A stretch of DNA of 20,951 bases. Origin: a virus. Both the position numbers and the translations under genes were made by a program. The notes beneath the pieces were generated by a model. It was not told the DNA's origin. It searched no databases and saw nothing but the letters and a program-made list of their open reading frames with translations. Within the stretch, counting starts at the first letter, position 1; the number at the start of each line of letters is the position of its first letter. The stretch is from the IMG/VR virus record IMGVR_UViG_3300030108_005733, positions 1 through 20,951 of that record. One strand, written 5' to 3'. This document shows positions 1 to 18,339 of the stretch, piece after piece.

Positions 1-1208
1 TGCTCAGAGAGAATACCCGTAAGCTCAACCTCTGCGTCCAAGTTGTGATAAGCGTTGAGATCCTGGCCAAGCTCAGGAGTCCACTTCGCTTTCAGTTTCT
101 TGGTTACGGCCGTGACACTTACCGAATCGACCTTAATATCGATTTCGGGGATTTGTGCCTCGTTTTCAAGGCCCCAAGTCGTGGTACCGGCGACCATACC
201 GAAATTATCTCCATCAGGCGCGGCTCCATCGCCACCAAAATCATCAGCTTCAGCGAAGCTCACGTTCGTGACTGCAATAGCAGATGCCGAAAGAGCAATT
301 GTATCGTGAGCACTAGAAGTACCAACGAAAGCAAGAATGATAGTTGATTCATTTGTTTCACCCTTGTGGCTACCACTGTACTGAGACAAACGACGAACCT
401 GCGTACCACCATTCGTGGCCAAGGATCCAAGAGCAGAACCACCAGCAGCTGCACCAGAAACAACAACAGAGACAAGATTGTCTTTGTTAAACTGGGTCAA
501 GTTGGCAGTAGTAATTGTTGCCAAGAACACTCTCTTGTCGAGAAGGTCTGGATCGAAACGACATATTGCGTCGAAATCGGTAGCAACAGCCGTACCAGCA
601 GCATAGGAGTTAGCAGCAGCATTACCTGCAAGACCAACACTCCAGCCACCTCCGACAGTACCGGAAGCAAGACCCTGGAGGCTAGGACCACCTGCGTTCG
701 TAACAGAACCGGTTGGCGAAGCATAACCCTGGTTCAATGCATAGAAGCCAAGCTCTGCATTTCGAGGGGTCGAGGTACCAAGATCGATACCACCAGTAAT
801 TTGCAGACCAACTGCTCCACCACCATAAACCGACTCATTGTCGTTTTGGCCGAGGCGCGGGTTGGTTCCAGGTGTGAACTGGAAGTCAAGGAAGAAGATC
901 AGGCCAGAAGGCAAGCTCATGGGCTGAACACTTACAAGATCATTTGCAATAAGCCCACCGAATACACGACGGACGATCGGGAATGCAACAGCAGCGAAAC
1001 CCTCAACATCTCCAGCAGCCATCGACGAAGCTTCTTTAAGAAGCTGTGCCGCTTGGTTCTCAAGAAGTCGAGCCATTCCTTGACGCTTTCCATCACCCTC
1101 AAGACCTTCAAGAAGTCCGGTAGCTTCCCACTTGTTAAGAAGTGCTGCTCCCTCCTTCTGAAGGTCGCGACTAACAATTCCTTCAGTTAATTTTTTCAAA
1201 ACACTCAT
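1..1208 (-). CDS. 23: Major capsid protein, T4 gp23-like (C-terminus beyond window)
   Basis: Main subunit of the icosahedral head shell. The reading frame opens at the ATG at 1208 behind AAGGAG and stays open to the left edge (about 402 codons), so the C-terminus is missing. Translation gives MSVLKKLTEGIVSRDL at the N-terminus and, near residues 76-115, the gp23 signature FPIVRRVFGGLIANDL then VSVQPMSLPSGLIFFLDF, matching the VQPM-P-G region of T4 gp23. Residues 1-60 are helical and charged, as expected of the N-terminal propeptide that the prohead protease removes. L57-K-E59 followed by Ala fits the (L/I)-x-E cleavage rule and lies close to the T4 cut after residue 65. It follows the scaffold gene by 17 bases, the T4 22-23 order. 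Identity is secure; the cleavage position is inferred. Confidence 0.93.
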   Translation of the reverse strand, partial: MSVLKKLTEGIVSRDLQKEGAALLNKWEATGLLEGLEGDGKRQGMARLLENQAAQLLKEASSMAAGDVEGFAAVAFPIVRRVFGGLIANDLVSVQPMSLPSGLIFFLDFQFTPGTNPRLGQNDNESVYGGGAVGLQITGGIDLGTSTPRNAELGFYALNQGYASPTGSVTNAGGPSLQGLASGTVGGGWSVGLAGNAAANSYAAGTAVATDFDAICRFDPDLLDKRVFLATITTANLTQFNKDNLVSVVVSGAAAGGSALGSLATNGGTQVRRLSQYSGSHKGETNESTIILAFVGTSSAHDTIALSASAIAVTNVSFAEADDFGGDGAAPDGDNFGMVAGTTTWGLENEAQIPEIDIKVDSVSVTAVTKKLKAKWTPELGQDLNAYHNLDAEVELTGILSE

Positions 1209-1225: not shown

Positions 1226-2254
1226 TTATTTAATTCCTGCGAGTCGTTGCATACGACTCTTAGCACCACTCGGCACGTCTGACTTTGGCCGCTTATTGCG
1301 GCGGCTGGCCAGCAAGGATGAGTTCCTTTTCTCAACCGTCTCACTCAGTGATTTTGGTCCTCGCCGGTTAACCGGTGAAGATCCCACTGCGTTTTGGAGG
1401 GCTTCAAAAATTACCTTAGCCTCTTCTGCCGAACTTACGTTAGAAATAGCATCGACAACTTTTTGTTTTTGTCGCTCATTCAGAGAGTCACTATTCAATA
1501 TTTTATTCGTATAAATTAATCTAGCATTGGAAACAACCATTTCGTCAAACTTTTCTTTTAACGAAGAGACAACTTCCTTATACTTTTCTTCTCGTTCCGA
1601 AATTGAATCAAAAGATTCTTGAAGCTTGTCTAATTTATCTGCAAGCTCTTTGTTTTCTTTCTTAAGAACATCCATTTCTTCTTCTTGAGCCAATACAGCC
1701 AAATGCTTTTCAGCTTCAAAATCAAGCTCTTTTTGAGGTCGACCAACATGGCCACTCATTTGTGGTGACATATCCACGATGACTTTCTCCAGAAGGTCAG
1801 TAAACTCTTCCTCGCTCAAGTTAAACTCTTCTTCCAATTCTTCATCATCAGCGATTTCAACTTCTTCAGCCAGTTCTTCAGCTACTTCTTCGTGTGGTTC
1901 AGCTGTACCGATATCGCCGGCTGCTTCCATTTCATCAAGTTGTTCTTTGATTTTATCAAGATCAAACTCTACCATTTCTTCAAGATTTGGCTCAGTGATT
2001 TGATCTGCAGGAATTATGACATCAACCGTTTCTGCTTCAGGATCTAGAGGGAGTTCATCCTCCGTAGCTGCTAGGGGAATCCCAGCTGGAGCGTCGTCCG
2101 TATCCTCGACCTCTTCTTCCTGTTCAAGTAGCTTTTCAACAGCATCCTTGATATCATCAGAATACTTTTCAATCAAGGTCTCCTCTGCGTTCCTAATGGC
2201 TGCTTCTCTTAGAGATTTAGCATCCACAATTGCTTGTTCTAACATAGATGACAT
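1226..2254 (-). CDS. 22: Prohead core scaffolding protein, T4 gp22-like
   Basis: Internal scaffold on which the capsid protein assembles; in T4 it is then degraded by the gp21 protease. The 342 residues are very acidic over about residues 35-160, with long Glu/Asp runs. They become a predicted coiled coil at about 185-250 and end in a basic tail with the SRMQRLAGIK terminus that I associate with gp22 homologues of marine T4-like phages. Many L-x-E triplets suit processing by gp21. The ATG has a strong site (AAGGAG, six bases spacing). The gene lies directly upstream of the major capsid protein, as in T4, and is separated from the fibre gene before it by a 97-base intergenic region with a terminator and possible promoter. 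Sequence similarity alone is modest because scaffolds diverge quickly; position and composition make the call firm. Confidence 0.85.
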   Translation of the reverse strand: MSSMLEQAIVDAKSLREAAIRNAEETLIEKYSDDIKDAVEKLLEQEEEVEDTDDAPAGIPLAATEDELPLDPEAETVDVIIPADQITEPNLEEMVEFDLDKIKEQLDEMEAAGDIGTAEPHEEVAEELAEEVEIADDEELEEEFNLSEEEFTDLLEKVIVDMSPQMSGHVGRPQKELDFEAEKHLAVLAQEEEMDVLKKENKELADKLDKLQESFDSISEREEKYKEVVSSLKEKFDEMVVSNARLIYTNKILNSDSLNERQKQKVVDAISNVSSAEEAKVIFEALQNAVGSSPVNRRGPKSLSETVEKRNSSLLASRRNKRPKSDVPSGAKSRMQRLAGIK

Positions 2255-2351: not shown

Positions 2352-4781
2352 TTATGTTGTAGCTAATAAGGGCGTATCGTTTAGTTTTCCGTCAACAAGC
2401 CATAATGCTCCGGTAGAAATAAACTCCAATATATCACCAGCGGCGGCATTCTGTAAAGTAATCTGACCCTGGTTCCCCACGGCTGTTAAACCAGTTCCAC
2501 CAGTAGTATTATTAAAATCTATTATAGAGCCATTTATAACATTCTCGCCCGTAGCAGATTTAATAATGTGGTTTTGTGATGAGGCAATGAGTATTCTGCA
2601 ATAAAAACCCTTCGTTGTTTTTGCAGGCAACGTTATTGTCTGAGCCGAGCCGGCTGAAAGAACAACATCAACGCCAGACATGGCTGCGGTAAGCGTCATA
2701 TTGCCACTAGAAAGATTTCTTACTGGCCTAAGATTACCAAAGCCACCCATAAAAGTGTTGTTGGTTTCTGATTCCGGATTTGTTCTCGCAACTTCTGTGG
2801 CAGAACCGCCAACCATTGAGGTAAAAATCATATTACCATTTTCTGCACCATCTGAAACGTCTGCAGAACGAACATCAATTTTAGAGTACACTACGTCCTC
2901 TGCGTCATCGCCGACTTGATCATCAAGACCTTCGAACCTAATGGTACCTATAAAGTCGTCGTCGGCAACACTGCCCTCTGGCTCTTTGCGAAACACCATT
3001 ATTGCACCATTTGAGCCGGTTGCTGAATTCATCAACATGAGGGCGGCTTGATCCATTCCTTGACTAGCATTACCGGAAACCTCAATGGCTACAGCGGCCA
3101 TGAAGTTTTCATCTGTATCTCCAGACTGGCGTGCATTTTGAAGCACATAGAGGCAAGTGGCGGAAGTAGAAGCTTCATTCTTGTTGTGAATTCTAACCAA
3201 CTCGCGAGCCTGAGTAGCTGAACTATCAGATTGAATATGAAGGGCTCTACCGGTAGTAAGCCCATCGGCAGTAATATCAATGACGTTAGCTGTCGTGACC
3301 GCATCAGCAGTAATATCAATTACATCTGCATTAATATTTGCAGCATCGATATCGAGCGCAATCTGGTCTGTGTCATCATTATCAATAAGAAGGGCAGCTG
3401 CAGCAGCGGAGGAGCCATTTTCAATCTCAACACCAGCTGCCGTTGTTTTCATCAGCCCACCAGAATTGATTGTAAAGGCCCCGCCATCTGCAACCGTGAA
3501 CGTGGTTGTGTCAGCAGCATCGTCACCCTGGTCAGCTTTCAAGGTCAATACGGCACTAGTAGCTTCGCCAGCAGTTAATGTCATTGCAGAGCCGGAAACC
3601 AAAAGACTACCAGTAATGCTAGTAGTTCCATTTACAGCAAGAGTGGAGGTTGGAGCGCTAGTTCCTATTCCTACCCGAGAGGTGCCACCATTTACATACA
3701 ACATGTTGGCATTGGCATTTGATTCAACACGGAAGTCACAATCGATGCTGGCATCATTAACTACAACTTCACAAGCAGTACCATTTGCAACATCCTCTCC
3801 ACCAATCGAGAAAAGATTTGCAGAAGCAGCGGTACCACCAGTTCCGCCAGCAAAAACACTAAAGGTTATCTTGCCGCCTTCGTCGTTATTAGTAACGTCA
3901 GATGATTCAGCGAGAATTTGAACAAACGTCGTTTCATCATCGTTTGAATCAAGACCAATAAAGTCGATGGTACCAAGATCATCATCGTCAGCAGCACTAC
4001 TCTCTGCCTCCTTAACAAAAGCCATTATGGGACCATTTGCGTCCGTATTTGAATTCATAAGCTTAAGAAGTGGCTGATCTGCTGTTCCAACAGCTGTCTC
4101 AACAACTAAAGCTGCACCCAAGTTTTCATCTTCGCCACCATTTTGGCGAGCATCTTGACGAACGTACAAACAAGTCGTGTTAGTTGCTGAAGCATGATCA
4201 TTATGAATCGTGACCAACTCGCGGGCACTGGTGGTTGAACTGTCAGAAACGAGTTTTAGAATCGCGCCTGTTGTTAGAGCGTCAGCAGTGACGTCTAAGA
4301 CATTTGCAGTTGTGACAGCATCAGCAGTAATATCAATGACGTTTGCATTGATATTTGCAGCGTTAACATCAAGGGCAATTTTATCTGTATCGTTACTATT
4401 AAGCTGAACAAGTGGGACGCCTGTTGCGCCAGCCGAAGCATGGTTTGTAATTTCCAACGTTGCAGCAGGTGCATCCGTTGAATCACCAATACTAACTCTA
4501 TCGTTTCCAGCGTCAATAAAAAAGAGGTGAGTTTCAGTATCACCCTCGACACGGAAATCAAAATCACCGCCGGCTTCATTAGAAATGAAAGAACCATAGT
4601 TGGTGATTGTATTGGTTCCTGAAACTATCAAACTACCTGTGACTATTAACGAGCCAGTAATATCTAATGAGCCGGTAATAGAACCGGATCCATAAGTAAT
4701 GGCACCCGTAGAACCACTTGCTGTGGTTCCACTGCCGCTAATTGTTGTTGTCCCGCCAGAGCCGCTTACTATAATAGGCAT
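2352..4781 (-). CDS. Large repeat-containing virion protein, probable tail/head fibre
   Basis: An 809-residue beta-rich, Gly/Ser/Thr/Asp-rich protein with no enzymatic motif. Residues 1-60 are a low-complexity stem with ITGSL/IVTGSL hexad repeats. Residues 75-111 and 348-383 are two copies of a fibre motif (DFRVE ... RVSIG/RVGIG ... TLxI/V). Residues 131-314 and 470-660 are two copies of a module of about 185 residues with DTDxIALD, NVIDITADAVTTA, AREL, CLYV and G-I-F landmarks. The C-terminus (about 686-809) has TITLPA ... GDILEF ... LWLVDGK, like a trimerising fibre tip. No collagen repeat or S74 chaperone is seen. Its ATG overlaps the stop of the preceding 687-residue gene (TAATG), so the two are probably translated together. 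Fibre or decoration role is inferred from composition and position; the exact structure is unknown. Confidence 0.7.
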   Translation of the reverse strand: MPIIVSGSGGTTTISGSGTTASGSTGAITYGSGSITGSLDITGSLIVTGSLIVSGTNTITNYGSFISNEAGGDFDFRVEGDTETHLFFIDAGNDRVSIGDSTDAPAATLEITNHASAGATGVPLVQLNSNDTDKIALDVNAANINANVIDITADAVTTANVLDVTADALTTGAILKLVSDSSTTSARELVTIHNDHASATNTTCLYVRQDARQNGGEDENLGAALVVETAVGTADQPLLKLMNSNTDANGPIMAFVKEAESSAADDDDLGTIDFIGLDSNDDETTFVQILAESSDVTNNDEGGKITFSVFAGGTGGTAASANLFSIGGEDVANGTACEVVVNDASIDCDFRVESNANANMLYVNGGTSRVGIGTSAPTSTLAVNGTTSITGSLLVSGSAMTLTAGEATSAVLTLKADQGDDAADTTTFTVADGGAFTINSGGLMKTTAAGVEIENGSSAAAAALLIDNDDTDQIALDIDAANINADVIDITADAVTTANVIDITADGLTTGRALHIQSDSSATQARELVRIHNKNEASTSATCLYVLQNARQSGDTDENFMAAVAIEVSGNASQGMDQAALMLMNSATGSNGAIMVFRKEPEGSVADDDFIGTIRFEGLDDQVGDDAEDVVYSKIDVRSADVSDGAENGNMIFTSMVGGSATEVARTNPESETNNTFMGGFGNLRPVRNLSSGNMTLTAAMSGVDVVLSAGSAQTITLPAKTTKGFYCRILIASSQNHIIKSATGENVINGSIIDFNNTTGGTGLTAVGNQGQITLQNAAAGDILEFISTGALWLVDGKLNDTPLLATT
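2802..3374. repeat. Second copy of the long duplicated module in the 809-residue protein
   Basis: Encodes residues 470-660 and pairs with the copy at 3840-4391. The shared order of landmarks is DTDQIALD, AANIN, VIDITADAVTTAN, LTTG, AREL, CLYV, the N-G-I-M motif and a closing G-x-I-F strand. Each copy also holds a smaller internal repeat (VIDITADAVTTAN followed by VIDITADGLTTG). Confidence 0.75.
3840..4391. repeat. First copy of the long duplicated module in the 809-residue protein
   Basis: Encodes residues 131-314. It aligns without large gaps to residues 470-660 of the same protein: DTDKIALDVNAANINANVID against DTDQIALDIDAANINADVID. Each copy is preceded, directly or after a short insert, by the DFRVE...VxIG module, giving an A-B-A-B architecture that points to an internal gene duplication. 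Confidence 0.75.
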
Positions 4782-6844
4782 TAGTCTTCAATCTCCTGTA
4801 ACATCATTTTATATCTCTTTCCTGTTGCGTTATTTATGACGCACAAATAATCCGGTTCCTCAAGAATTGTCCAATCTCCTCGTTCATTTCTAAGATGTAA
4901 GTCGCCAGTATATATATTTGCCCAGCGCTTATCTGGTTGACCCAAATTGTGAGAATTGTCACTTGATGGTACCACATGACTACTAAAGGTTGCACCCTGT
5001 GAACCAGTCAACTGCCCCGTCACTGTTATAACATCAGCTGCAGCATCTCCTAAAGTAACAGAACCTGACACACTCAGATTGTTAGATACAAATGTGGCAC
5101 CACCGATCACTGCACCAGCAGAAGATGAAAGTGTAGATGCTAAAATTGTAGAACCAGTGACGTTCAGAGCGTTAGAGATAAATGTTGCACCACCAAGAAC
5201 TGCACCAGCAGAGGACGAAAGCGTAGATGCCAAGGTTGTAGAACCAGTGACATTTAGTGCGTTAGAAATAAAAGTATGACCCCCAAGAACTGCGCCGGCA
5301 GAAGATGAAAGTACACCAGTCAAGGTTGCTGAGCCGGAAACACCTAAAGTCTTAAAGTGACCTCCAGCAGAACCAGAGACAGATCCAGAGGCAGCCAAAG
5401 AAGTAGGATGGGATAAGAGAACTGTACCTCTTATGTTTGCTCCAGCTGATGAAGATAATAGGCCAGTTAAGGTTGCCGAACCAGAAACACCTAGAGTCTT
5501 AAAGTGACCTCCAGCAGAACCAGAGACAGATCCAGAGGCAGCCAAAGAAGTGGCATTAGATAAGAGAACTGTTCCCCCTATAATTGCCCCAGCTGATGAG
5601 GATAATACACCAGCAGTAGTAATAGAGCCAGATGTAGCCAAAGAGGTGGGATTAGATAAAATAACTGGACCAAGCATTGTAGAGCCCAGAGAAGATGAGA
5701 ATGACGTCGTTGTTAGGTCAGCCAAAGTGGCAGATGCATCTTTAAAAGTTATGTTTCCACCATCGGCATTAAGTTCAATATCACCATCACAATCAACTGT
5801 GAAAGTAGATTCCGTCGCAGAGGCAGACAAAACGGTGCTAACTTTGGCTGTCTCAATTGTAATACCAGTAAGACCAGTAGCACCTCCACCTGAGCCAGTT
5901 AAGAAAACACTCCCAGTAATACTATGGACATCGCTGTGGGCATCTCCCAAGGTGGCGGAACCTGAAACAGCGATACCAGCTGCCAGAGGGAATTGAGCCA
6001 AACCAGTAGAACTAATCGATAGCGCCGTGTTGGTTCCAACCGTTGAGCCTAATCCAAGCTTGAAGTGATTATCAGTGTCATCAATGCCTATGTAAAAGTC
6101 ATTTGTGCTACCATCAAGAACAATCTTTTGATCTTCTGCATCGCCATCACCAACAGTTAGGGCACCAGCTACTAATGTCGCACCAGAGACGTTTAAAGTG
6201 TTCGATATAAACGTTGCACCACCCACAACTGCGCCAGCAGACGAAGATATCACTCCAGCAGTAGTGATAGAACCAGAAGTAGTTAGTGAATTGGAGTTAG
6301 ATAAAATAACTGGCCCAAGCATTGTAGAGCCCAGAGAGGACGAAAACGATGTGGTTGTTATATCAGCCAGCGTGGTAGTATCGTCCTTAAAGATTATATT
6401 ACCACCGTCAGCGTTAAGCACAATATCGCCACTACTATCAATTGTAAATACGCCCTCATGAGCGGAGGCTGATAGAACAGTGCTAACATCGGCTGTTTCA
6501 ATTGTAATACCAGTAAGATTGGAACGCCCATTGGCAGAACCAGTTACATATATGCTACCGCTAAAATCGTGCTTATCTGATCCATCGTTACCAAAACTAT
6601 TGGAGCCTTGATAAATTGTGTCACTTACTGTTATTGTCTGAAATTTATATGAGTTGATTGTACCAGAAACATCTAAATTTCCAGAAAGATAAAGGTTGCT
6701 GTTGGCATAATCATATGTTAAATTGTGGGAACCGGAGATAGCAGCGGACCCAGAGTAGAAAGTCACTCTTTGATCTGCAGCCCCCGTATGTGCTACGGTT
6801 GACCCAGTTACATACGCCCAACCTAGTGATCCAATATTTGGCAT
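4781..6844 (-). CDS. Repeat-rich virion protein with conserved C-terminal tip, probable fibre
   Basis: A 687-residue Gly/Ser/Ala/Thr-rich beta protein. The N-terminus (1-110) has short strands and GS turns. Two long repeats follow (about 114-207 and 328-424; landmarks TIETA-VSTVLSASA, LNADGGNI, FKD, SFSSSLGSTMLGPVILS). Between them (230-281) lies a module shared with the 208-residue protein upstream. Residues 413-510 are two 49-residue tandem units and 511-600 three 30-residue units (LSSSAGAVLGGATFIS). The C-terminal 65 residues form a distinct, charged, non-repetitive domain (HNLGQPDKRWANIYTGDL, then RGDWTILEEPDYL) that I recall from fibre-like proteins of marine T4-like phages. AGGAG precedes the ATG. 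The stop overlaps the next gene's ATG. The repeats suggest a long beta-helical shaft; receptor or capsid binding is not known. Confidence 0.7.
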   Translation of the reverse strand: MPNIGSLGWAYVTGSTVAHTGAADQRVTFYSGSAAISGSHNLTYDYANSNLYLSGNLDVSGTINSYKFQTITVSDTIYQGSNSFGNDGSDKHDFSGSIYVTGSANGRSNLTGITIETADVSTVLSASAHEGVFTIDSSGDIVLNADGGNIIFKDDTTTLADITTTSFSSSLGSTMLGPVILSNSNSLTTSGSITTAGVISSSAGAVVGGATFISNTLNVSGATLVAGALTVGDGDAEDQKIVLDGSTNDFYIGIDDTDNHFKLGLGSTVGTNTALSISSTGLAQFPLAAGIAVSGSATLGDAHSDVHSITGSVFLTGSGGGATGLTGITIETAKVSTVLSASATESTFTVDCDGDIELNADGGNITFKDASATLADLTTTSFSSSLGSTMLGPVILSNPTSLATSGSITTAGVLSSSAGAIIGGTVLLSNATSLAASGSVSGSAGGHFKTLGVSGSATLTGLLSSSAGANIRGTVLLSHPTSLAASGSVSGSAGGHFKTLGVSGSATLTGVLSSSAGAVLGGHTFISNALNVTGSTTLASTLSSSAGAVLGGATFISNALNVTGSTILASTLSSSAGAVIGGATFVSNNLSVSGSVTLGDAAADVITVTGQLTGSQGATFSSHVVPSSDNSHNLGQPDKRWANIYTGDLHLRNERGDWTILEEPDYLCVINNATGKRYKMMLQEIED
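5045..5314. repeat. Three tandem 90-base (30-residue) units in the 687-residue protein
   Basis: Encodes residues 511-540, 541-570 and 571-600. Each begins with LSSSAGAV and continues GG-(A/H)TF(I/V)SN-L-V-GS. The first two are nearly identical in protein; the third has drifted. The repeats are in frame and far too divergent in DNA to be a CRISPR array. Confidence 0.8.
5315..5608. repeat. Two tandem 147-base (49-residue) units, with a 56-base exact match
   Basis: Encodes residues 413-461 and 462-510. The two copies share 56 identical consecutive bases (5349-5404 and 5496-5551, offset 147). This shows a recent tandem duplication or repeat homogenisation. Shared protein landmarks are GTVLLS, SLAASGSVSGSAGGHFKTLG and VSGSATLTG. 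Confidence 0.85.
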
Positions 6845-7827: not shown

Positions 7828-8250
7828 CTAAGCCGTTAATCCAGAACCAGTCAAACGATACATAGAGGCAGTTGGGATCCCTGTCAGTTCAGCGAATACT
7901 TCGAAACCACAAGTTCCATGTCGAGAGGTTAGATATACCTCTTTGCATTTAACATTGAAAGTTACTGAATCACCAGCATCTGCTAATGTAATATAGTGAT
8001 GACCCGAGCCTGTAACAGCGTCAGCACCAATTTGTGCATCAGCACCATCAACGGCAGTGTTGAAGTGAACTAACAGCTGCCCAGAAGTAGAGCCCGAATT
8101 AATCACAGTAATTGATTTGGTAACATACGGAAACTGAACCTTTGTTTCCTGCGCGGCTACCATTAAACCATTAGAACCAGTGATGTATGGCACTCCGCTT
8201 ACTTGATAAGCTCCTACTTGTCTTAACCCTTGTCCTTTATAAACTGACAT
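7828..8250 (-). CDS. Small beta-rich structural protein, function unknown
   Basis: A 140-residue protein starting MSVYKGQGLRQVGAYQVSG and dominated by alternating beta strands with Gly/Ser/Thr turns. One region resembles an immunoglobulin-like or jelly-roll fold (SITVINSGSTSGQLLVHF ... HHYITLADAGDSVTF). No signal peptide or catalytic motif is seen. It is preceded by AGGAG and lies nine bases after the bS21 gene. Size, fold style and setting among virion genes suggest a head decoration or neck protein, but I cannot match it to a named T4 protein. Confidence 0.6.
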   Translation of the reverse strand: MSVYKGQGLRQVGAYQVSGVPYITGSNGLMVAAQETKVQFPYVTKSITVINSGSTSGQLLVHFNTAVDGADAQIGADAVTGSGHHYITLADAGDSVTFNVKCKEVYLTSRHGTCGFEVFAELTGIPTASMYRLTGSGLTA

Positions 8251-8259
8251 TATTATCTC

Positions 8260-8478
8260 CTAGTCTCTATTTTTTTGTTCCCATTCTTGGCGTAGCTGCT
8301 TATACACCTTCTTTCTTCGAATCTTTTTGAGTCTTCTTATTTTAGAAGGCTTTACAAAATGTTGTCTTTCCAACACCTCTCTAAGAAAACCCTCTTTCTT
8401 ACATTTCTTAATAAATCTTTTTATTGCTCTCTTAGGATCTTCGTTTCTCCTAACGTACACTTCCATATTGATTCCCAT
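8260..8478 (-). CDS. rpsU: Ribosomal protein bS21 homologue (phage-encoded)
   Basis: Cellular bS21 is a small basic protein of the 30S subunit that sits near the anti-Shine-Dalgarno end of 16S rRNA and helps mRNA binding at initiation. This 72-residue product matches it over most of its length: V-V-R-NE-(D)P-AI-RF--KC-K-GFL-EV--R--F-KPS--R, corresponding to the E. coli pattern V-V-ENEPFD-AL-RF-R-CEKAG-L-EV-RRE-YEKPT. The C-terminal third is the usual Arg/Lys-rich tail. The first ATG overlaps the stop of the 127-residue gene (TAATG); an internal ATG four codons on (MEVYVRRNE) gives a more typical bS21 start and has GGGA upstream. S21 genes are known in some phages, including marine ones. Placement among head genes implies late expression. 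Replacement of host S21 to favour phage mRNAs is a hypothesis. Confidence 0.87.
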   Translation of the reverse strand: MGINMEVYVRRNEDPKRAIKRFIKKCKKEGFLREVLERQHFVKPSKIRRLKKIRRKKVYKQLRQEWEQKNRD

Positions 8479-8861
8479 TAGATTAGTTTACTCCAGTTAC
8501 TATTAAATAGTCCAGAAATGTCAACTCCAGGATCTCCAGGTGAAATATTTGACAAAGGAGAGTGAGAATTTGATTCACTGGGTGAAGGTTCAGTGCCTTC
8601 AAAAATGTTTACACCATTGTAAGAATTTTTTCCAATGGCATCCATCATTCTTTTTCTTTGTTCTTGAATTTTCTTTTTAGCCAGTTCATTATTTGGTTTT
8701 GGCTTAGAAACTTGTTTTTGTTCTTGGATAACTGGTGCTGTGTCAACACCCTTTACAACCTCACTAATAATCCCGGAAAGCACACCTTCTTCAAAGATAA
8801 CTTCCTTGATGCATTGCTTGATTAGTGGTTTAAGAACTTTTTTCAATTCGTTTTTTTTCAT
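8478..8861 (-). CDS. Small lysine-rich protein in prohead-core position, function unknown
   Basis: A 127-residue protein. The N-terminus (1-40: KKNELKKVLKPLIKQCIKEV, then IFEEGVLSGIISEVVKG) is an amphipathic helix that I have seen in small conserved proteins of marine T4-like phages. A charged segment follows (about 45-75, KPKPNNELAKKKIQEQRKR), then a Ser/Pro/Gly-rich C-terminal half. No catalytic motif or membrane segment is seen. It starts four bases after the protease gene and its stop overlaps the bS21 start. A prohead core component, by analogy with T4 gp67/gp68 near gene 21, is possible, but there is no sequence proof. Confidence 0.55.
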   Translation of the reverse strand: MKKNELKKVLKPLIKQCIKEVIFEEGVLSGIISEVVKGVDTAPVIQEQKQVSKPKPNNELAKKKIQEQRKRMMDAIGKNSYNGVNIFEGTEPSPSESNSHSPLSNISPGDPGVDISGLFNSNWSKLI

Positions 8862-8865
8862 AATC

Positions 8866-9477
8866 TCACTTTAATATATCGTAAAGCGCTCGATTAATCC
8901 GATCCGCTTTTGTCCAAACTTTGTTTTGTATTTCTCTTTGTTGATTTTCAGAAAGAGCTAAATAAGCGTTTGTCGTTGAGGGCTCTGAAACAATGTCAAA
9001 ACAAATCAACTGAAAATCATCCTCGACAATTATTCCTCTATGATTCTCCTGTACAGAACCCATGCCTCTCGAAGAAATACCAAGAGAGACGCCAGATTTA
9101 GCCAGAGACTTAAGAATGTTGCCAGAGGGGGTATCGAGAGCGCGGAGCTTGCCCATAACACGATCGCCATCCCACCAACATTGTGTCACAATATGAGAAA
9201 CATTGCGAAGATTAATTACCGAATCATCTGGGTGATCTAACTCACCAAGGGCTCGGTTTTCATTAATAATTTTTTGATAGTTTTCTACTTCCCTCATCAA
9301 AACCGATTTAGGATAAATTCTACCATTGCCGTTTTTTTGCTCAGCACATTGAATGATTCCTGTGAGAAACACAGCGCCCTCTTCATTAACCATTCGCTTT
9401 TCAGCCTCGGTTAAAAAATCCTGACAGATGCCTCCATCACACAACTCATAATATTCTCTAAGTACAACTTTACTCAT
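8866..9477 (-). CDS. 21: Prohead core protease, T4 gp21-like
   Basis: Serine protease that assembles inside the prohead and cleaves scaffold, capsid protein and packaged internal proteins, usually after (L/I)-x-E. The 203 residues match the T4 gp21 size. The His motif GELDHPDD with His82 and the Ser motif SLGISSRGMGS with Ser136 (or Ser135) are both present, with the usual spacing of about 54 residues. The N-terminal region AEQKNGNGRIYPKSVL is also typical of these prohead proteases. The gene starts behind AGGATG, just after a hairpin terminator, and precedes a small prohead-core-like gene. It is intact. Confidence 0.9.
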   Translation of the reverse strand: MSKVVLREYYELCDGGICQDFLTEAEKRMVNEEGAVFLTGIIQCAEQKNGNGRIYPKSVLMREVENYQKIINENRALGELDHPDDSVINLRNVSHIVTQCWWDGDRVMGKLRALDTPSGNILKSLAKSGVSLGISSRGMGSVQENHRGIIVEDDFQLICFDIVSEPSTTNAYLALSENQQREIQNKVWTKADRINRALYDILK

Positions 9478-9490
9478 TTTTACATCCTGG

Positions 9491-9568
9491 TTAAAAAGCG
9501 GGCGCTACCCGCCCGATTAAGCTTCCTCGGCAACAGTTAGCAACTCTTGGAATCATGTATCGTTTCAT
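9491..9568 (-). CDS. Possible 25-residue micro-ORF with a strong ribosome binding site
   Basis: A very short frame (MKRYMIPRVANCC..., 25 codons plus stop) starts two bases after the stop of the membrane protein gene. Its ribosome binding site, GGAGG with five bases to the ATG, is among the best in the window, although the same bases encode the last Gly-Gly of the preceding gene. The frame ends inside the T run of the terminator hairpin. No homologue is known to me. It may be a real micropeptide, a translated leader affecting the terminator, or chance. Confidence 0.3.
   Translation of the reverse strand: MKRYMIPRVANCCRGSLIGRVAPAF
9493..9515 (-). terminator. GC-rich hairpin terminator between the portal block and the protease
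   Basis: The minus strand reads CGGGCG, loop GGTAG, CGCCCG, then CTTTTT: a perfect six-pair GC stem followed by a T run. It is the strongest rho-independent terminator signature in the window. It lies only 16 bases before the protease ATG, so it probably sets the dose between upstream and downstream genes or requires antitermination. Confidence 0.75.
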
Positions 9569-9569
9569 C

Positions 9570-9857
9570 TTAGCCTCCGAAATTAATATTTAAACCATCA
9601 TCATTAAACAACATTGACAATGTATAGCTCGTTCCAGAACTTAAACACCCTAGAAGCAAGGCATTGACAAAATTATAGTCAAATATAAATAGTTCTGTAT
9701 ATCCGTTTACGCAGAACAAAAATACACCAACCCAAAAGCCCATACACATTGGACAATGAAAAAAATGATGTTTTGGTCTAATCTTCTTGAAGATGGTCCC
9801 ATAGACCAATATTAATGTAAGACCATAAGATATAAGAATAAAGTATAATAGTTCCAT
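9570..9857 (-). CDS. Small membrane protein with CxxC-GFW motif (DUF1360-like)
   Basis: A protein of 95 residues from the ATG at 9857 (a GTG one codon earlier is possible). The first 21 residues form a hydrophobic segment (LLYFILISYGLTLILVYG). Then come the basic KKIRPK and the motif HCPMCMGFWVG, followed by a second hydrophobic segment (VFLFC) and a third weaker one (NALLLGCLSS). The C-x2-C-x-GFW pattern resembles small membrane proteins of the DUF1360 type found in bacteria and phages; their function is unknown. The ATG overlaps the stop of the upstream degenerate copy (TGATG). Its location among head genes is unusual for a membrane protein. Prohead assembly at the inner membrane, as in T4, could explain it, but that is speculation. 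Confidence 0.6.
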   Translation of the reverse strand: MELLYFILISYGLTLILVYGTIFKKIRPKHHFFHCPMCMGFWVGVFLFCVNGYTELFIFDYNFVNALLLGCLSSGTSYTLSMLFNDDGLNINFGG

Positions 9858-9934
9858 CACTGCCTAGGGGCCCCATAAACTAACAATATCATGAGGCTAT
9901 AAGATATAATAATAAAGTAAACTAACTGCTCCAT
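9857..9934 (-). pseudogene. Truncated tandem copy of the small membrane protein gene (25 codons)
   Basis: A 25-codon frame starts on the stop codon of the 178-residue gene (TAATG) and ends on the start codon of the membrane protein gene (TGATG). Its product begins MEQLVYFIIISYS and continues through LVYG, aligning with MELLYFILISYG ... LVYG at the N-terminus of the next gene with one inserted residue. The bases align too (TACTTTATT-TTATATCTTAT in both). It diverges after LVYG and stops at APRQ. It could be a dead duplicate or a short, single-span membrane micropeptide kept in translational coupling; both stop/start overlaps are intact. Confidence 0.6.
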
Positions 9935-10470: not shown

Positions 10471-11290
10471 CAGATTGTATTTCCTTAACCAGTTTTTGAA
10501 TTTTTAAAACCTGCTTGATCATACTATCATCGACCTGGCTTGTCTTATACTCCTCGATAATGCTAATAACTTTTTTAGCTGACTCCAGCATGTTTGAATC
10601 TTCTTTTACCTCTTCCATATCAAGCGAATCATTAACAACCCCCTTCAATCTTGATATTTCCTCATTTAGATAAGTCTTAAGACCGATACCATCGTCAGAG
10701 AAAGAGTAGATATATTGCACCAACAACTCTCTTTGCTCCTCCTGAAGTTCTCCATAAGTTTCGTTGAATTTCTTAATAAATGTCTTAAATGTCAACTTAT
10801 CGATGGGCTTCATCTTTTCTTTTTGCTCTTCATTAATTGACATCATGTTCTTGACAATTTGTTTTTCAAGCATCACTCTTTTTTTGACTGTCAGTTCATC
10901 ATTGAAGATTTGAGAAAGAGTGGCCAAGTCTTTGTAGTTGGGAATAAAATTGGAGAAAACGCTTTTAGATAAATCTTTGTTAACCCTAGAGATCAGATGG
11001 CTTTGTTGCTCATAGACCTCGGGGTTTTTAAAACCAGACCAATAAATCATTTTTGCTTCGTAAAGAATCTTTTCAGCCGTAGAATAATCAAGTTCCCTGC
11101 TCTCTAACACATCCCTATACAAAGTAAGCTCTTTTCCCAGAATGGAGTCCTTCTTAAAATACTCCTTTATAATAGAAAGAACACAATCCTTTCTTTCTTT
11201 ATCGTCTTGCACGATGCTCTTAGTTAATTCTTTTACCAGAGATTCGTACAGAAACATCGTATTTCGTTTCTTATTGTGCCTGAGTTTCAT
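10463..11290 (-). CDS. Helical protein of unknown function, coupled to portal gene
   Basis: A 275-residue, lysine- and glutamate-rich, almost wholly helical protein starting KLRHNKKRNTMFLYESLVKE. Similar proteins follow the portal gene in marine T4-like phages as far as I recall, with no assigned function. No catalytic motif, signal peptide or membrane segment is seen. Helical stretches at about 140-165 and 220-245 could form coiled coils. Its ATG lies 20 bases inside the end of the portal gene, which implies translational coupling and a matched dose. A portal or prohead-core assembly role is inferred from this coupling only. Confidence 0.65.
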   Translation of the reverse strand: MKLRHNKKRNTMFLYESLVKELTKSIVQDDKERKDCVLSIIKEYFKKDSILGKELTLYRDVLESRELDYSTAEKILYEAKMIYWSGFKNPEVYEQQSHLISRVNKDLSKSVFSNFIPNYKDLATLSQIFNDELTVKKRVMLEKQIVKNMMSINEEQKEKMKPIDKLTFKTFIKKFNETYGELQEEQRELLVQYIYSFSDDGIGLKTYLNEEISRLKGVVNDSLDMEEVKEDSNMLESAKKVISIIEEYKTSQVDDSMIKQVLKIQKLVKEIQSDG

Positions 11291-13187
11291 TGTTTTTGTT
11301 CTCCAATTCTGTAATCAGTGTTCTAACCTTGTTGTTAGTTTCAATTAAGATTGCTTCTTCATCTTTATAATTAGATTCTTCCCCCTCCATAAGACCTTTT
11401 GATAGGCGACCTAAGTCTTTTAATCCTGGGTGGAGCTTTCTTGGTGTGCTAAATTCTGGCGTGTGGTTTCTCTTATAACTTTTTGTCCTTGGGCCAGCGC
11501 TAACTCGACCATCAACTTCAACCGGATGATAGACTTTGCCCTTCGCGCCTGGAGTTAAGTACCCATCATCTCGCTTACCCGGTGGAGGGGTTGCCAAAAG
11601 TGGAGACTCCTCTGGAGATTCCTCTGGTGTTTCTTCTGGCGTTTCTTCGGCAGCATCATCACCAAGATCTAAATCTATATCAGCGGTATCACCCCCAATA
11701 TCATCAGGGGTAAAATCTGCTGCTACTTCTTCTGCTTCCGAAACAGTATCAAGTGCCGTCTGGAACTTCCGGTCTGAGAAGAGTTCTCTTTGGTTACGAA
11801 TAAATTCTTCCTCAGATAAGTCAAAAATATTCTTAGCAACCCAACGTCGACTAAAGTATCCTTCTGTAGCTGATGAAGCAATATCGAACTTCTGCTTCCA
11901 ATGTTCCAGTTCTTGCAACTCTGCAATCTTAGAGGGATTACTTAATTTAAGTTTAAAAGAAACTAGGTCGCTGCCACGATACCCAAGAGAATAAAGATGG
12001 ACAATGCCTATTTTTTCAAGCTCAGAAATAATAACCCTCTGTAGTCTCTGGATTGTTCTAGCAAAACGGATGTCCTTTTGTGCAAGAGTTGTCTTGTCTT
12101 CATCAGCACCCTCACCACGTGAAAGATACGACTGAGGAACTTTAAGGGCCGAAAACAGTTTATCTCTCATATATTTGATATCGTCGATATCTCCAGTATA
12201 TGTCCCGCCCGGTAAAGTTTCGATTCTTGTCGAAATACCACCACGGACTGGGATAAAATAATCTTCCTCAACAGAAAGAGGATTATATCTTAAATCAACA
12301 CGACCAGTATCAGGGTCAACAACCTGATTACGCTTCATTTGGGTCATGATTTTTTGCATGTATTGTTCCAAATCTTGAGGCGGAACATTTCCTGTGTCAA
12401 TATAGAACACTCGGCGTTCTGGTGAGCGAACAATACGATAAGCCATCACTGCATCTTCAAGAAGAGTTAGTTGTCGCCAAATACGACGGGCAGGCTCAAG
12501 AACAGACGTGCCGTAAGGAGCATGTTTGTCGTTTCCAAGGATCCTGAAGTGTGCGATTTGCCAATTTTCAAATGTCATGCCGGCCTGGTTCCACTGAAAT
12601 TGGACATAGTTTGGATTAGTTTTATCTTCTCCTTCTATTCTCTCAACTTCATTGTATGGAAGGCTGATTACATTTTTAATACCATGCTCTTCGTCAACGT
12701 CGATATATAAAAAATAATCCCCGTACTTACACATCGTTCGACACCAGCCAAAAAGGTTGAATTCGATATTCAATATATTATGATAAAGCGTGTGTAGGAC
12801 AGTTTTGATTTCCTCATTTGTACAATCAATCCGTAGAAGAGGTTGTAAATCAGAGGATGTCGTCATCTCATCTGCGTATATATCCAAGGCAGAAGCAATC
12901 TCTGGGGTATACTCCATTTGATCAAAATCAGCATAACGTTCAACGCGATTTTGAGATGAAATTATATTCGATTGAAGATTGTGAAAAGGATTGTAAGATG
13001 ATTTTTTAAACTGTTGTCCACTTAAAGACCTAAACGTTTGAGCAAATTTATCAAGCTGTGAACGCCGATATTTCCGTATCGTTTGAGCGCGATAATCAAT
13101 AATAGGACCAGAAAAGATTCTAGTCAGTCTTCTAAACAAATTTGAGTTCGGATTCTTTGGATTCTTTGTATCTTTTTTAGGTGCCAT
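11271..13187 (-). CDS. 20: Portal vertex protein, T4 gp20-like
   Basis: Dodecameric ring at one head vertex through which DNA is packaged and ejected, and onto which the tail docks. The 638 residues contain gp20-family features in order: basic N-terminus with YRAQTIRKYR (about 32-41), EIASALDIYADE (96-107), the stem/wing region with RIVRSPERRVFYIDTGNVPP (251-270), LPGGTYTGDIDDIKYMRDKL (325-344) and KVPQSYLSRGEG (349-360). T4 gp20 has 524 residues; the excess here is mostly a C-terminal extension from about 480 onward, acidic and containing ETPEETPEESPEES (514-528) before a basic tail. It starts five bases after the terminase stop. The extension does not interrupt the core. Identity is firm. 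Confidence 0.93.
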   Translation of the reverse strand: MAPKKDTKNPKNPNSNLFRRLTRIFSGPIIDYRAQTIRKYRRSQLDKFAQTFRSLSGQQFKKSSYNPFHNLQSNIISSQNRVERYADFDQMEYTPEIASALDIYADEMTTSSDLQPLLRIDCTNEEIKTVLHTLYHNILNIEFNLFGWCRTMCKYGDYFLYIDVDEEHGIKNVISLPYNEVERIEGEDKTNPNYVQFQWNQAGMTFENWQIAHFRILGNDKHAPYGTSVLEPARRIWRQLTLLEDAVMAYRIVRSPERRVFYIDTGNVPPQDLEQYMQKIMTQMKRNQVVDPDTGRVDLRYNPLSVEEDYFIPVRGGISTRIETLPGGTYTGDIDDIKYMRDKLFSALKVPQSYLSRGEGADEDKTTLAQKDIRFARTIQRLQRVIISELEKIGIVHLYSLGYRGSDLVSFKLKLSNPSKIAELQELEHWKQKFDIASSATEGYFSRRWVAKNIFDLSEEEFIRNQRELFSDRKFQTALDTVSEAEEVAADFTPDDIGGDTADIDLDLGDDAAEETPEETPEESPEESPLLATPPPGKRDDGYLTPGAKGKVYHPVEVDGRVSAGPRTKSYKRNHTPEFSTPRKLHPGLKDLGRLSKGLMEGEESNYKDEEAILIETNNKVRTLITELENKNNETQAQ

Positions 13188-13192
13188 ATTTT

Positions 13193-14767
13193 TTAACCTT
13201 TATAAAGCCAAGAAAATTCTTGCGCTTGCTTGATTTGTCTTTTTCTCTCAATAGTTTTATGACCCCTCATCCCAGGAATCGTTGTATTCATAACTGTTCT
13301 GCTTTTCTTAAATGAATCCATAAGTGCCTTTCTGTATTCTGCATCCTTTTGATTCACTGTTAGTGCAGTATCTCTCACCCAACAAGCAATCGCCAAAGCC
13401 ATCACTAGGTCGTCGTTGTATCCTCGCATGGCCTCTGGCTTGTTGTTATTCCAAACAAACGTCTTGATTTCACTAAGAAGACGAGAAGAATATATGTTAA
13501 TTATGTTGTTCCTAATGAATTCTTCCAATTTTGCCAAAATCATTGGGCGAGTTTTACTGGAAGTTGTAAAACCAGGCACACAATCACTTCTCCCTTCAGC
13601 TACATATTGTTCCACATATTCGTGTGTGGATTTAACAGAGTGATAGACATTCGTATAACCTAGTTCCTTAATCTTTTCTATTACTGTGTATCCGATGTTG
13701 TTGTTTTCAATGACAAGCATACAATCACCATATTGCTTGCCAATATCCATTAAAAAAGGGGCATAATGGTCAGGAGTCATTTTACCTTGATATTCGGCGA
13801 CAATCTCCATTGTATTAAGGTTTATAACATGGAAAACAGAATAATCTTTTCCATCTCCTCGGGCAACGTCAGCAGATATCAGATATGTACAAGAGACATC
13901 ATATTGCTGCCATATCCACAAGCCACGATCATATCCAGTTCTATATTCTGGCTCTTGTATGCTTTCCTCTATTCTAGCAATATCGTTTGGATGAATCACC
14001 GTTTCACCAGACATGTTAAAGTTGCACTCAAACTCCTGTGCAATCTGTCGCCTGGACATATTCTTTGTTTCTTTCTCAAACCACTCTTGATCTCGATCAG
14101 GGTGTAAATCCCACATTAATTTAACATGATGAAAATCGTTTGCTTGCTTCTCAGCATCAATGTAAGTTTGATGAAACCAGTTACCAACACCGTTAGGTGT
14201 TGATACAACAATGCACCGACCACCAGTTGAGATTGTGGGATAGAGACCGGTCCAGAGGTCATCAAGCCCTTCTACGTGGGCAGCCTCGTCAATAACCAGC
14301 AATGACAGTGCTTCTGAACGACCGGCATCTCCGGAAGTTGATGCGGCCTTGATTTGTGATCCGTTAGTCAATTCAAATGAGCTTCTGTTATCAACAGATA
14401 TATTAGCTATTGTAATCCAATCTGGTAAATTTTTAATGATTGCTTTAACTTTTTTTACTAAATTCGATGCTGTCTGGAACTTTGTCGCCATCACAAGAAT
14501 GTTCTTGTCACGATGAAACAACATTAGCCAAGACACATAGGCAGCAGTAATTGTAGAAATACCCATCTGTCGAGCCTTCAATACTATGTTAAATCGATAA
14601 TCATTGAAGTCCTCCAGTAAGTCTTGTTGGAAGTCGTATGTTTTAAACGGGACTAAGCCGTGGATGGGGTGAGATATTTTAGCGTAATTATTAATGAAAT
14701 AGTAAGGGTCTTTACCAGATTTAACGATCTCTTTGATCAGTTGCTTTTTGGATAGTTGATAGCTCAT
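13193..14767 (-). CDS. 17: Large terminase subunit (packaging ATPase/nuclease), T4 gp17-like
   Basis: Motor that pumps DNA into the prohead and cuts the concatemer. Of the 524 residues, the N-terminal half is the ATPase: Walker A-type KARQMGIST (64-72), Walker B LLVIDEAAHV (156-165, with D160 and E161), and the coupling motif STPNGVGNW (189-197). The C-terminal half is the RNase H-like nuclease with metal-binding acidic residues in ADVARGDGKDYS (D300), LVIENNN (E354) and YNDDLVMALAI (D452/D453). All key residues are present. T4 gp17 has 610 residues, so this is a somewhat shorter, complete version. The stop is followed five bases later by the portal ATG; in T4 the sheath and tube genes lie between them. 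Confidence 0.95.
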   Translation of the reverse strand: MSYQLSKKQLIKEIVKSGKDPYYFINNYAKISHPIHGLVPFKTYDFQQDLLEDFNDYRFNIVLKARQMGISTITAAYVSWLMLFHRDKNILVMATKFQTASNLVKKVKAIIKNLPDWITIANISVDNRSSFELTNGSQIKAASTSGDAGRSEALSLLVIDEAAHVEGLDDLWTGLYPTISTGGRCIVVSTPNGVGNWFHQTYIDAEKQANDFHHVKLMWDLHPDRDQEWFEKETKNMSRRQIAQEFECNFNMSGETVIHPNDIARIEESIQEPEYRTGYDRGLWIWQQYDVSCTYLISADVARGDGKDYSVFHVINLNTMEIVAEYQGKMTPDHYAPFLMDIGKQYGDCMLVIENNNIGYTVIEKIKELGYTNVYHSVKSTHEYVEQYVAEGRSDCVPGFTTSSKTRPMILAKLEEFIRNNIINIYSSRLLSEIKTFVWNNNKPEAMRGYNDDLVMALAIACWVRDTALTVNQKDAEYRKALMDSFKKSRTVMNTTIPGMRGHKTIERKRQIKQAQEFSWLYKG

Positions 14768-15734: not shown

Positions 15735-17114
15735 TCAAGAATTTGAAAACGGACTTGAATCCCAAGTTGGTACTCCTGAAGCGAAAGCGGCTCCTCCGTC
15801 ATCCCCGAACGAATCATTAGTTAGTGTTCCGTGATTGCCGTTTCCTGAATGATCTGTAACAGTGGTACCATTACCTTTATTAAATTTCCAATATCCTACA
15901 ATACCACTTTCGTCTCTAAGATCTTTTCTCTTTCGGCGTGTTCGTGGTCGATTTGGTCCATTGGTGTTATATATGTTTGCAATAAAGTCAGCATCTTTTT
16001 CTGTGTTAAAAATGGCTACCTCACTAAGAGCACACGCCCATCCGTTGTTATAGCTAGTGCTTGTTCCTGAACCTCTTACTGCTCGCATACCAAAAGATAA
16101 ACCCTTACTCATCTCTCTTCCTGTATCACTGTAATTTATATTACCAAGATTAGCTGGGTCTGACACTCCAGTGCCCCATACTTGCTGTCCATTCATATAT
16201 ATTTTACGCAACATGTTGTTTGTTCCTGCATCAGTGCCTGCATATGTTACTGCGAAATGATACCAAGTACCATCTGTTTTTAGAATATATTTACCATCAG
16301 TGTCCTCTATTACCCATTCTCCTAATTTATCTGATAATCCTGCTGTATCAAGCATTGTCTTAAATGTTCTTTCAGATTGGTTTGCCCCAACGCCGACATA
16401 CAATTTGTGCTTTTGACTAATACCAAATGTAAATCTTGAGTTATTGTGAGCTTTTCTACCAATACAGAACATATCACTACCCAATTCATCTGGTCTAACC
16501 CAATAAGATATGGTAAATCCTGATTCTGCAAGCGGCTTTCCTGAGCCATCGGGGTTATCAGGATTAAAATCAGTTGCTACCAAATCCCCTCTCCTAGTGC
16601 TGACATTTGTATCGCCGGTAAATGATAAGGCATAACTTACACTTCTTCCCTTAGCGCGAGCCCCGTACTGTTTCTTTGCCATCCGGGTGTCACGCTTATA
16701 TACTTCCATTGCAAGCTCAAGATCTAAATCAGCTAATTCTTGATTAAGGGGAGCGGTTAGCCAACTATTCCAATCAAGATCCTGAAGAAGAGGTTCACGA
16801 TTCTGGATTATATTATTTATTTCTTCAAGTTCTCTGATCTTTCGGGCGCGTTCTTCGGCCTGAGATAGCAAAGAATTAAACTCTTTTTCCCATTTTTGTT
16901 CTGCTAACTCTTGTTTTCTCTGAATGTGTTTCTGACTAATACGCTCAGCTTCTTGTCGCTCTAAAAGAAACCTTTCACGCTCAGCGATTTCTTCCTGCCT
17001 AAGAGTTTCAGCCTGTATTTTAGCAAGACGCTCGGCTTCTTTTTCGGCTTCCAATTCAGCAGCGTGCTGCTTTTTTCTTTCCCACTGTCGTTGTCGGTAC
17101 TTAAGATATTCCAC
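15735..17114 (-). CDS. Coiled-coil protein with C-terminal LamG-like lectin domain
   Basis: Probable virion-associated carbohydrate-binding protein. From the GTG at 17114 (459 residues), about 1-125 are a continuous charged helix (WERKKQHAAELEAEKEAERL, then RERFLLERQEAERI), ideal for a coiled-coil stalk. About 159-459 form a concanavalin A-like/LamG jelly roll: YALSFTGD, FTISYWVRPDEL, GTWYHFAVTYAG, IYMNGQQV, and GYWKFNKGNGTTVTDHSGNG near the end. An in-frame TTG at 17216 would add 34 residues but has no ribosome binding site and overlaps the upstream gene by 98 bases. The GTG lies four bases after that gene's stop, so I prefer it. A role as a short fibre or glycan-binding appendage is inferred. 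It could also be a cargo or collar protein. Confidence 0.7.
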   Translation of the reverse strand: MEYLKYRQRQWERKKQHAAELEAEKEAERLAKIQAETLRQEEIAERERFLLERQEAERISQKHIQRKQELAEQKWEKEFNSLLSQAEERARKIRELEEINNIIQNREPLLQDLDWNSWLTAPLNQELADLDLELAMEVYKRDTRMAKKQYGARAKGRSVSYALSFTGDTNVSTRRGDLVATDFNPDNPDGSGKPLAESGFTISYWVRPDELGSDMFCIGRKAHNNSRFTFGISQKHKLYVGVGANQSERTFKTMLDTAGLSDKLGEWVIEDTDGKYILKTDGTWYHFAVTYAGTDAGTNNMLRKIYMNGQQVWGTGVSDPANLGNINYSDTGREMSKGLSFGMRAVRGSGTSTSYNNGWACALSEVAIFNTEKDADFIANIYNTNGPNRPRTRRKRKDLRDESGIVGYWKFNKGNGTTVTDHSGNGNHGTLTNDSFGDDGGAAFASGVPTWDSSPFSNS

Positions 17115-17118
17115 AGAC

Positions 17119-18339
17119 TCACTTCTTTTTGCTTTTTTTGACAGAGTTAATATATTTTCTATAAACTGCTGCAGCAGACTTCTTTCCAGCTGCTTTTGCT
17201 CTTTGTTCCATTGCAACAGCTGCTTGAACTTTGTGAGCGTGAGTTCGACTAGATCTCTTAATTTTATTTACACTCGCCTCTGCATCCTTTACAGTTGCAA
17301 ACTTTAGTCCGTGAATCGTACCTTTTGGATCTTCATCTGTGTAAAGGTCACTGTGTTTTTTAGACTTGGCGGGTTGTCCTTTTTTGCGAGGTATTCTCGG
17401 ATTTTTCTCCTCATTGGTTCTCTCACCCTTTTTAGATCTAGTTTTTTGGTTTTTGCAGAACTGCTTCATTGTAAAACCTTTTGGATTAGCGCATTTGTTT
17501 TTTCTTTTAGCTCGCTCTTTTTCTGACCACTTCTCTTGAAGTGTGGTGTCACCAATCTTTATTGTAATACCGGAGGGTTGCCCACCATTTAGCGACATCA
17601 TGCGATCATAGGCATCTGTTCTTACGTTGGATAGTCTTCCCAAATACCCATTTCTTCTCAAGACTTTAAATGCAAGGTTTTCTGGAGAAAACTCACCTCC
17701 TTGTTCCAGTCCGCACTTACGAAAGTCCCTGATTCTATCTCGTAAACGAATCGCCTCATTGTGGGCATCTTCATACCTTCCGGCGGCAAATACGTCCTCG
17801 ACATCTTCTATCAAGTCCATAAATGCTTGTGCTTTTTTACCAACCAGAGGTTCATCAATTGTAACCTCTCTGTAAGTTGGCTTTGTTTCCCACTTGTTAT
17901 ATAATAGGGAATAGACACCGGTCGACATGTGCGGTTCCCCGGTGTCCTGAACATATAGTTCCACTTCGTGTGTCCCAATCTTAACATTATGAACTTTGTT
18001 CCAGTTCGCTCGAACACTTCTAAAATAATCTTTTACTAAGTCCATAGGAGCATTAATATCGTTGAAATTGACAAGAATGTGTAAATCAATATCAGACTTT
18101 TCTGACCAATTATAGTTGGCTGCAGAACCAGTGATGATTATATCAACAATCCCGACATCTTTTAAATCTAAATCACTCCAAAAATCATCAACGATTTCTT
18201 TTAGTTTCTTTGCTACTTCTGGACGGAGTTTTTCGCCTTTCCAAACTTTTGGATTAAGTTCTTTCTTCAACTCGAAGGTTGAGAAATCAAAGTCTAGTTC
18301 CTCTAAATATTGTCTGAAACTTTCAAGTAATAATTTCAT
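17119..18339 (-). CDS. Nucleotidyltransferase-fold protein with capsid-targeting-like N-terminus
   Basis: A 406-residue, three-part protein. Residues 1-14, MKLLLESFRQYLEE, match the start of the preceding 686-residue protein at 10 of 14 positions and end in L-E-E, a gp21-type cleavage pattern. Residues about 62-135 are a Pol-beta/MNT-type nucleotidyltransferase core: GSAANYNWSEKSDIDLHI with G71-S72 and D83/D85, and HEVELYV (E125/E127) as the third acidic strand; helices follow to about 210. From about 268 the chain is Lys/Arg-rich, with CANPKGFTMKQFC and a terminal helical module (HAHKVQAAVAMEQRAKAAG...) I know only as a recurrent marine-phage domain. The ATG overlaps the previous stop (ATGA). 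Catalytic residues look intact; the substrate (nucleic acid, protein or drug) is unknown. Packaging and injection are hypotheses. Confidence 0.7.
   Translation of the reverse strand: MKLLLESFRQYLEELDFDFSTFELKKELNPKVWKGEKLRPEVAKKLKEIVDDFWSDLDLKDVGIVDIIITGSAANYNWSEKSDIDLHILVNFNDINAPMDLVKDYFRSVRANWNKVHNVKIGTHEVELYVQDTGEPHMSTGVYSLLYNKWETKPTYREVTIDEPLVGKKAQAFMDLIEDVEDVFAAGRYEDAHNEAIRLRDRIRDFRKCGLEQGGEFSPENLAFKVLRRNGYLGRLSNVRTDAYDRMMSLNGGQPSGITIKIGDTTLQEKWSEKERAKRKNKCANPKGFTMKQFCKNQKTRSKKGERTNEEKNPRIPRKKGQPAKSKKHSDLYTDEDPKGTIHGLKFATVKDAEASVNKIKRSSRTHAHKVQAAVAMEQRAKAAGKKSAAAVYRKYINSVKKSKKK

Follow-up and report, generated by a model that had tools for sequence, protein, structure and literature searches.

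The window, by which we mean the whole 20,951-nucleotide stretch of viral DNA analysed here, carries a short gene for ribosomal protein bS21 inside a T4-type head block (gp17-gp20-gp21-gp23), placed between the prohead protease gene gp21 and the major capsid gene gp23 (Table 1).

Table 1. Genes and translation signals of the head-gene block surrounding bS21 in the window
Feature	Position	Strand	Basis or remark
Major capsid protein gp23 (PF07068)	3..1208, off window edge	minus	Pfam 9.9e-28
Acidic gene immediately preceding gp23, probable scaffold or prohead core	1226..2254	minus	position and pI 4.3
Next gene after bS21, function unknown, probably structural	7828..8250	minus	frequent downstream neighbour of bS21
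AGGAG Shine-Dalgarno of the gene after bS21	8257..8261	minus	overlaps the bS21 stop codon
Phage bS21 (rpsU-like)	8260..8478	minus	72 aa, ATG start, pI 10.9; PF01165, S21p, PDB bS21
Small gene directly upstream of bS21	8478..8861	minus	127 aa, pI 9.2, C-terminal DPGVDIS motif; 1-nt overlap between its stop and the bS21 start
GGAG, best Shine-Dalgarno-like match upstream of bS21 Met1	8491..8494	minus	12-nt spacer; within the preceding gene, at its end
Prohead protease gp21 (Peptidase_S77, PF03420)	8866..9477	minus	Pfam 2.8e-29
Portal gp20	11271..13187	minus	Pfam 1.9e-84
Terminase large subunit gp17	13193..14767	minus	Pfam and PHROG

Judged by its sequence, the product of the 72-codon gene is a genuine phage bS21, on which three independent profile libraries and the sequences of solved structures agree. 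It matches Pfam Ribosomal_S21 (PF01165) with an E-value of 3.8e-13 and 49.4 bits (cut-off 27), NCBIfam S21p (TIGR00030) with 1.6e-10 and 40.7 bits (cut-off 28.95), and the PHROG family phrog_21469, ribosomal protein S21, while the top chain in a sequence comparison with the PDB is a bS21 (3.4e-7); the profile scores bear out the first-pass annotation, which had seen a clear bS21 homologue here. Residues F22, K25 and K43 do not vary among 38 diverse phage bS21 sequences, and the window protein keeps the conserved core (F, G, KPS) together with a basic C-terminal helix. The same annotation had described a retained core and a basic tail unlike those of cellular proteins; the difference in the tail is real, yet usual for bS21, as divergent C-termini are reported for phage copies in PMC9723584. 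An AlphaFold model predicts a helical protein (residues 15–29, 31–37 and 44–71; pLDDT 85, pTM 0.52), and all 13 Foldseek matches to this model are chains from ribosome structures with bS21 on top, although for so short a helical protein the best E-value is 0.066 and none falls below 0.001. Among close relatives dN/dS is 0.045–0.165 in the pairs for which it could be computed, a rough figure because dS is saturated in most pairs, and these sequence comparisons indicate that the gene is under purifying selection.

The proposed coupling of bS21 to the preceding gene through TAATG holds, with a real 1-nt overlap in which the final A of the TAA stop, base 8478, also opens the ATG start. A possible dual start, also suggested at first, is not supported: all seven close sequences keep the second ATG (Met5), but in every one of them Met1 has the better upstream ribosome-binding match (Met1 −5.9 to −7.2; Met5 −4.2, weak). 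The T4-type late promoter TATAAATA does not occur in exact form on the coding strand, and its near matches are not clearly above chance, nor is the number of sigma-70-like sites; searches for Rfam families and for tRNAs returned no match.

The first-pass annotation had placed bS21 between a prohead-core-like gene and a structural gene. Its placement in the head operon, flanked by gp21 and gp23, stands, but the prohead-core label is not established for the gene at 8478–8861, whose product has no match in Pfam or PHROG and a pI of 9.2. The likely better scaffold candidate is the acidic product of 1226–2254 (pI 4.3), itself lacking a match to any scaffold-family profile in Pfam and PHROG. The family of the 8478–8861 protein, a constant neighbour of bS21, shows a conserved helix-like stretch at the N-terminus and a P.DPGVDIS motif at the C-terminus. 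Elsewhere on the minus strand, a G+C-rich hairpin followed by a T run (9499–9515) lies between the gene at 9570–9860 and gp21 and resembles a terminator, with such sites not above chance in the region. Two long Ser/Gly/Thr-rich repetitive proteins, pieces of which match relatives at shifting places, occupy 2352–6844 and may serve as fibres or decoration. A protein with a Concanavalin A-like (Laminin_G_3) domain (15735–17216) lies upstream of the packaging genes. The proteins of 17119–18339, which includes a nucleotidyltransferase domain scoring at the Pfam cut-off, and of 18336–20396 share an N-terminal leader, MKLL(L/F)E(S/N)(F/W)RQYL(E/N)E, which we take to resemble the T4 capsid-targeting peptides cut by gp21.

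The arrangement around bS21 recurs well beyond the window. As a control for circularity we picked 80 viral contigs by similarity of gp21 alone, of which 56 were testable in that they extend sufficiently beyond the small gene. A bS21 profile match is present in 53 of the 56, in 49 directly after the same small gene, a frequency that describes this phage group rather than T4-like phages at large because the contigs sampled are the 80 that matched gp21 best. In L161, one of the three loci lacking a profile match, an open reading frame at this place looks by eye like a divergent bS21 but is not recognised by Pfam. Among loci in which bS21 was found, the majority order is gp17-gp20-(three small genes)-gp21-small gene-bS21-(unknown gene)-scaffold-gp23; a minority have bS21 in another context and probably belong to other phage groups. 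In 105 of 114 loci the distance from the preceding gene to bS21 lies between −8 and +27 nt, 21 of these having a 1- or 4-nt overlap, and bS21 lies on the gp21 strand in all 113 loci checked. Distances between bS21 proteins correlate moderately with those between gp21 proteins (Mantel r 0.37–0.45, above all 999 permutations). This points to a gene that has long been resident and has been exchanged at times, or just to the noise of a short protein. Contig names and relatives point to a marine T4-like group as the carrier of bS21 in this slot. One contig in an Acidiferrobacteraceae MAG (L086) equals an IMG/VR phage contig (L022) in size (24,260), gene layout and identities, and is therefore probably phage DNA binned with the MAG. 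An attempt to name a host through cellular bS21 was set aside, as the one genome scan gave mostly Melainabacteria/Gastranaerophilales, a result put down to a degenerate search pattern; tree distances between phage and cellular bS21 are large.

So constant a position among head genes might indicate that the protein has left the ribosome and serves in the virion or in head assembly, and packaging is raised as a possibility in PMC9723584. We regard this as very improbable: the protein retains the core residues and the predicted fold of a bS21, it has no N-terminal leader like those of the proteins starting at 17119 and 18336, and the T4-like phage HTVC008M carries its bS21 away from the head genes.

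On the ribosome bS21 is located beside the anti-Shine-Dalgarno (anti-SD) sequence of the 16S rRNA (PMC9723584; PMC9578407), and in Bacteroidota, whose genes usually have no SD, its Tyr54 stacks on the anti-SD region (PMC9723584). The window residue aligned to Tyr54 of Flavobacterium johnsoniae is K57, and an aromatic residue occurs there in only one of 116 group members. The genes of the window are strongly SD-led, with a mean duplex energy of −5.97 kcal/mol over 21 starts against −2.74 at random positions (a level reached by none of 20,000 resamples), and mean SD energies in the relatives scored range from −3.9 to −7.8. Since the aromatic is absent and the genes are SD-led, the anti-SD of the host is probably accessible, and the SD-led genes argue against a Bacteroidetes host. 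That the window protein helps to sequester the anti-SD as in Bacteroidota has a negligible probability in our judgement, even though Y59 lies two residues past the aligned position and the phmmer match to the F. johnsoniae protein runs from query 9–59 to chain 6–54, a pairing that would need a gap. Occlusion of that type is rejected here on K57 and the SD-led genes, and with a single aromatic among 116 sequences it does not apply.

We consider it rather likely that the phage bS21 enters host 30S subunits late in infection and supports or favours initiation on SD-led structural mRNA, with a putative bias towards phage mRNA. The protein would be made as part of the head-gene block late in infection, would enter the 30S subunit by exchange with, or addition to, host bS21, and would then sit next to the anti-SD end of the 16S rRNA, where initiation on the strongly SD-led structural mRNAs of the phage might be supported or favoured. 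Late expression is what its position, together with published metatranscriptomes of other phages, would lead one to expect, phage bS21 being transcribed with structural genes and expressed late in PMC9723584; incorporation into 30S is likewise anticipated from a published E. coli experiment with the bS21 of another phage. The leading hypothesis in the literature is that phage bS21 is made late and acts on host ribosomes, and the SD-led genes of the window fit it. Selectivity for phage mRNA is not obvious, as host bS21 generally serves SD-led mRNA too. The phage protein might simply top up or replace a scarce or absent host bS21, with no selectivity; bS21 is described as binding loosely and passing readily between assembled ribosomes (PMC9578407), and near-fixation of the gene would be expected if bS21 limited late translation, but we think this unlikely.

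Incorporation could also inhibit rather than favour, because the pelagiphage bS21 was stably incorporated into E. coli 70S ribosomes and left them about 5% of their activity in vitro (PMC6375957). From this one might suppose that phage bS21 acts mainly as a dominant-negative subunit, shutting down or damping host translation without selecting phage mRNA. We judge this quite unlikely, as the gene sits in the head block, to be expressed when the phage most needs translation, and the authors of PMC6375957 propose as causes that the phage protein is incompatible with E. coli ribosomes or that factors were missing. Returning to late entry into 30S in support of structural mRNA, we venture a broader and distinctly more tentative proposal: that bS21 belongs to the core genes of the head block in a large marine T4-like group, and that its product refits SD-using host ribosomes while capsid is being made, as a ribosome-specialisation switch unlike that of Bacteroidetes phages, with translational coupling possibly keeping its dose in step with that of the neighbouring genes.

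Whether viruses build specialised ribosomes is a question for which ribosomal proteins encoded by phages offer a test case. The first-pass annotation had located the novelty of this gene in its linkage to capsid genes, which is not new: among 900 published bS21 phages, 388 carry a core structural gene no more than ten genes away (Chen et al. 2022, PMC9723584). That phages encode bS21, next to capsid genes and with late expression, is thus already published, as is ribosome entry in E. coli (PMC6375957). Our additions, modest ones, are near-fixation in one slot, the same-strand close-packed order, the non-Bacteroidota residue and the SD usage, none of which we found in the portion of the literature surveyed. 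A near-universal, position-fixed bS21 combined with SD-led genes offers a cleaner contrast to the Bacteroidota type, in which SD pairing is blocked, and would let the selectivity hypothesis be tested.

Among known systems, the Bacteroidetes phages of Chen et al. resemble the window in having bS21 in the region of TerL, portal, prohead protease and MCP, with the same logic of late expression. They differ in that, as described in PMC9723584, bS21 and the structural genes lie on opposite strands, whereas they share a strand in our group, and in that the Tyr54 position is aromatic in 61 of 61, against the near absence of such residues and the SD-led genes here. Flavobacterium phage immuto has no bS21 in the head region searched. 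A tblastn search of named phages with the window bS21 gave no match; Mel-JY01 and HTVC008M surfaced through other queries. In the isolate Microcystis phage Mel-JY01 (PP395634.1) an annotated RpsU S21 lies, as in the window, between the prohead protease with a small gene and the capsid genes, and the portal is 43.5% identical to that of the window over 65%; its bS21 is divergent, being found by the profile but not by tblastn with the window protein. Pelagibacter phage HTVC008M (AGE60443) encodes a bS21 of the same family, the one shown to enter E. coli ribosomes in PMC6375957, but beside cobS and near clamp and clamp-loader genes rather than in the head block. The bS21 paralogues of Francisella (PMC9578407) are cellular rather than phage genes, and there, in a cell that uses SD, alternative copies alter how a subset of the genes is expressed.
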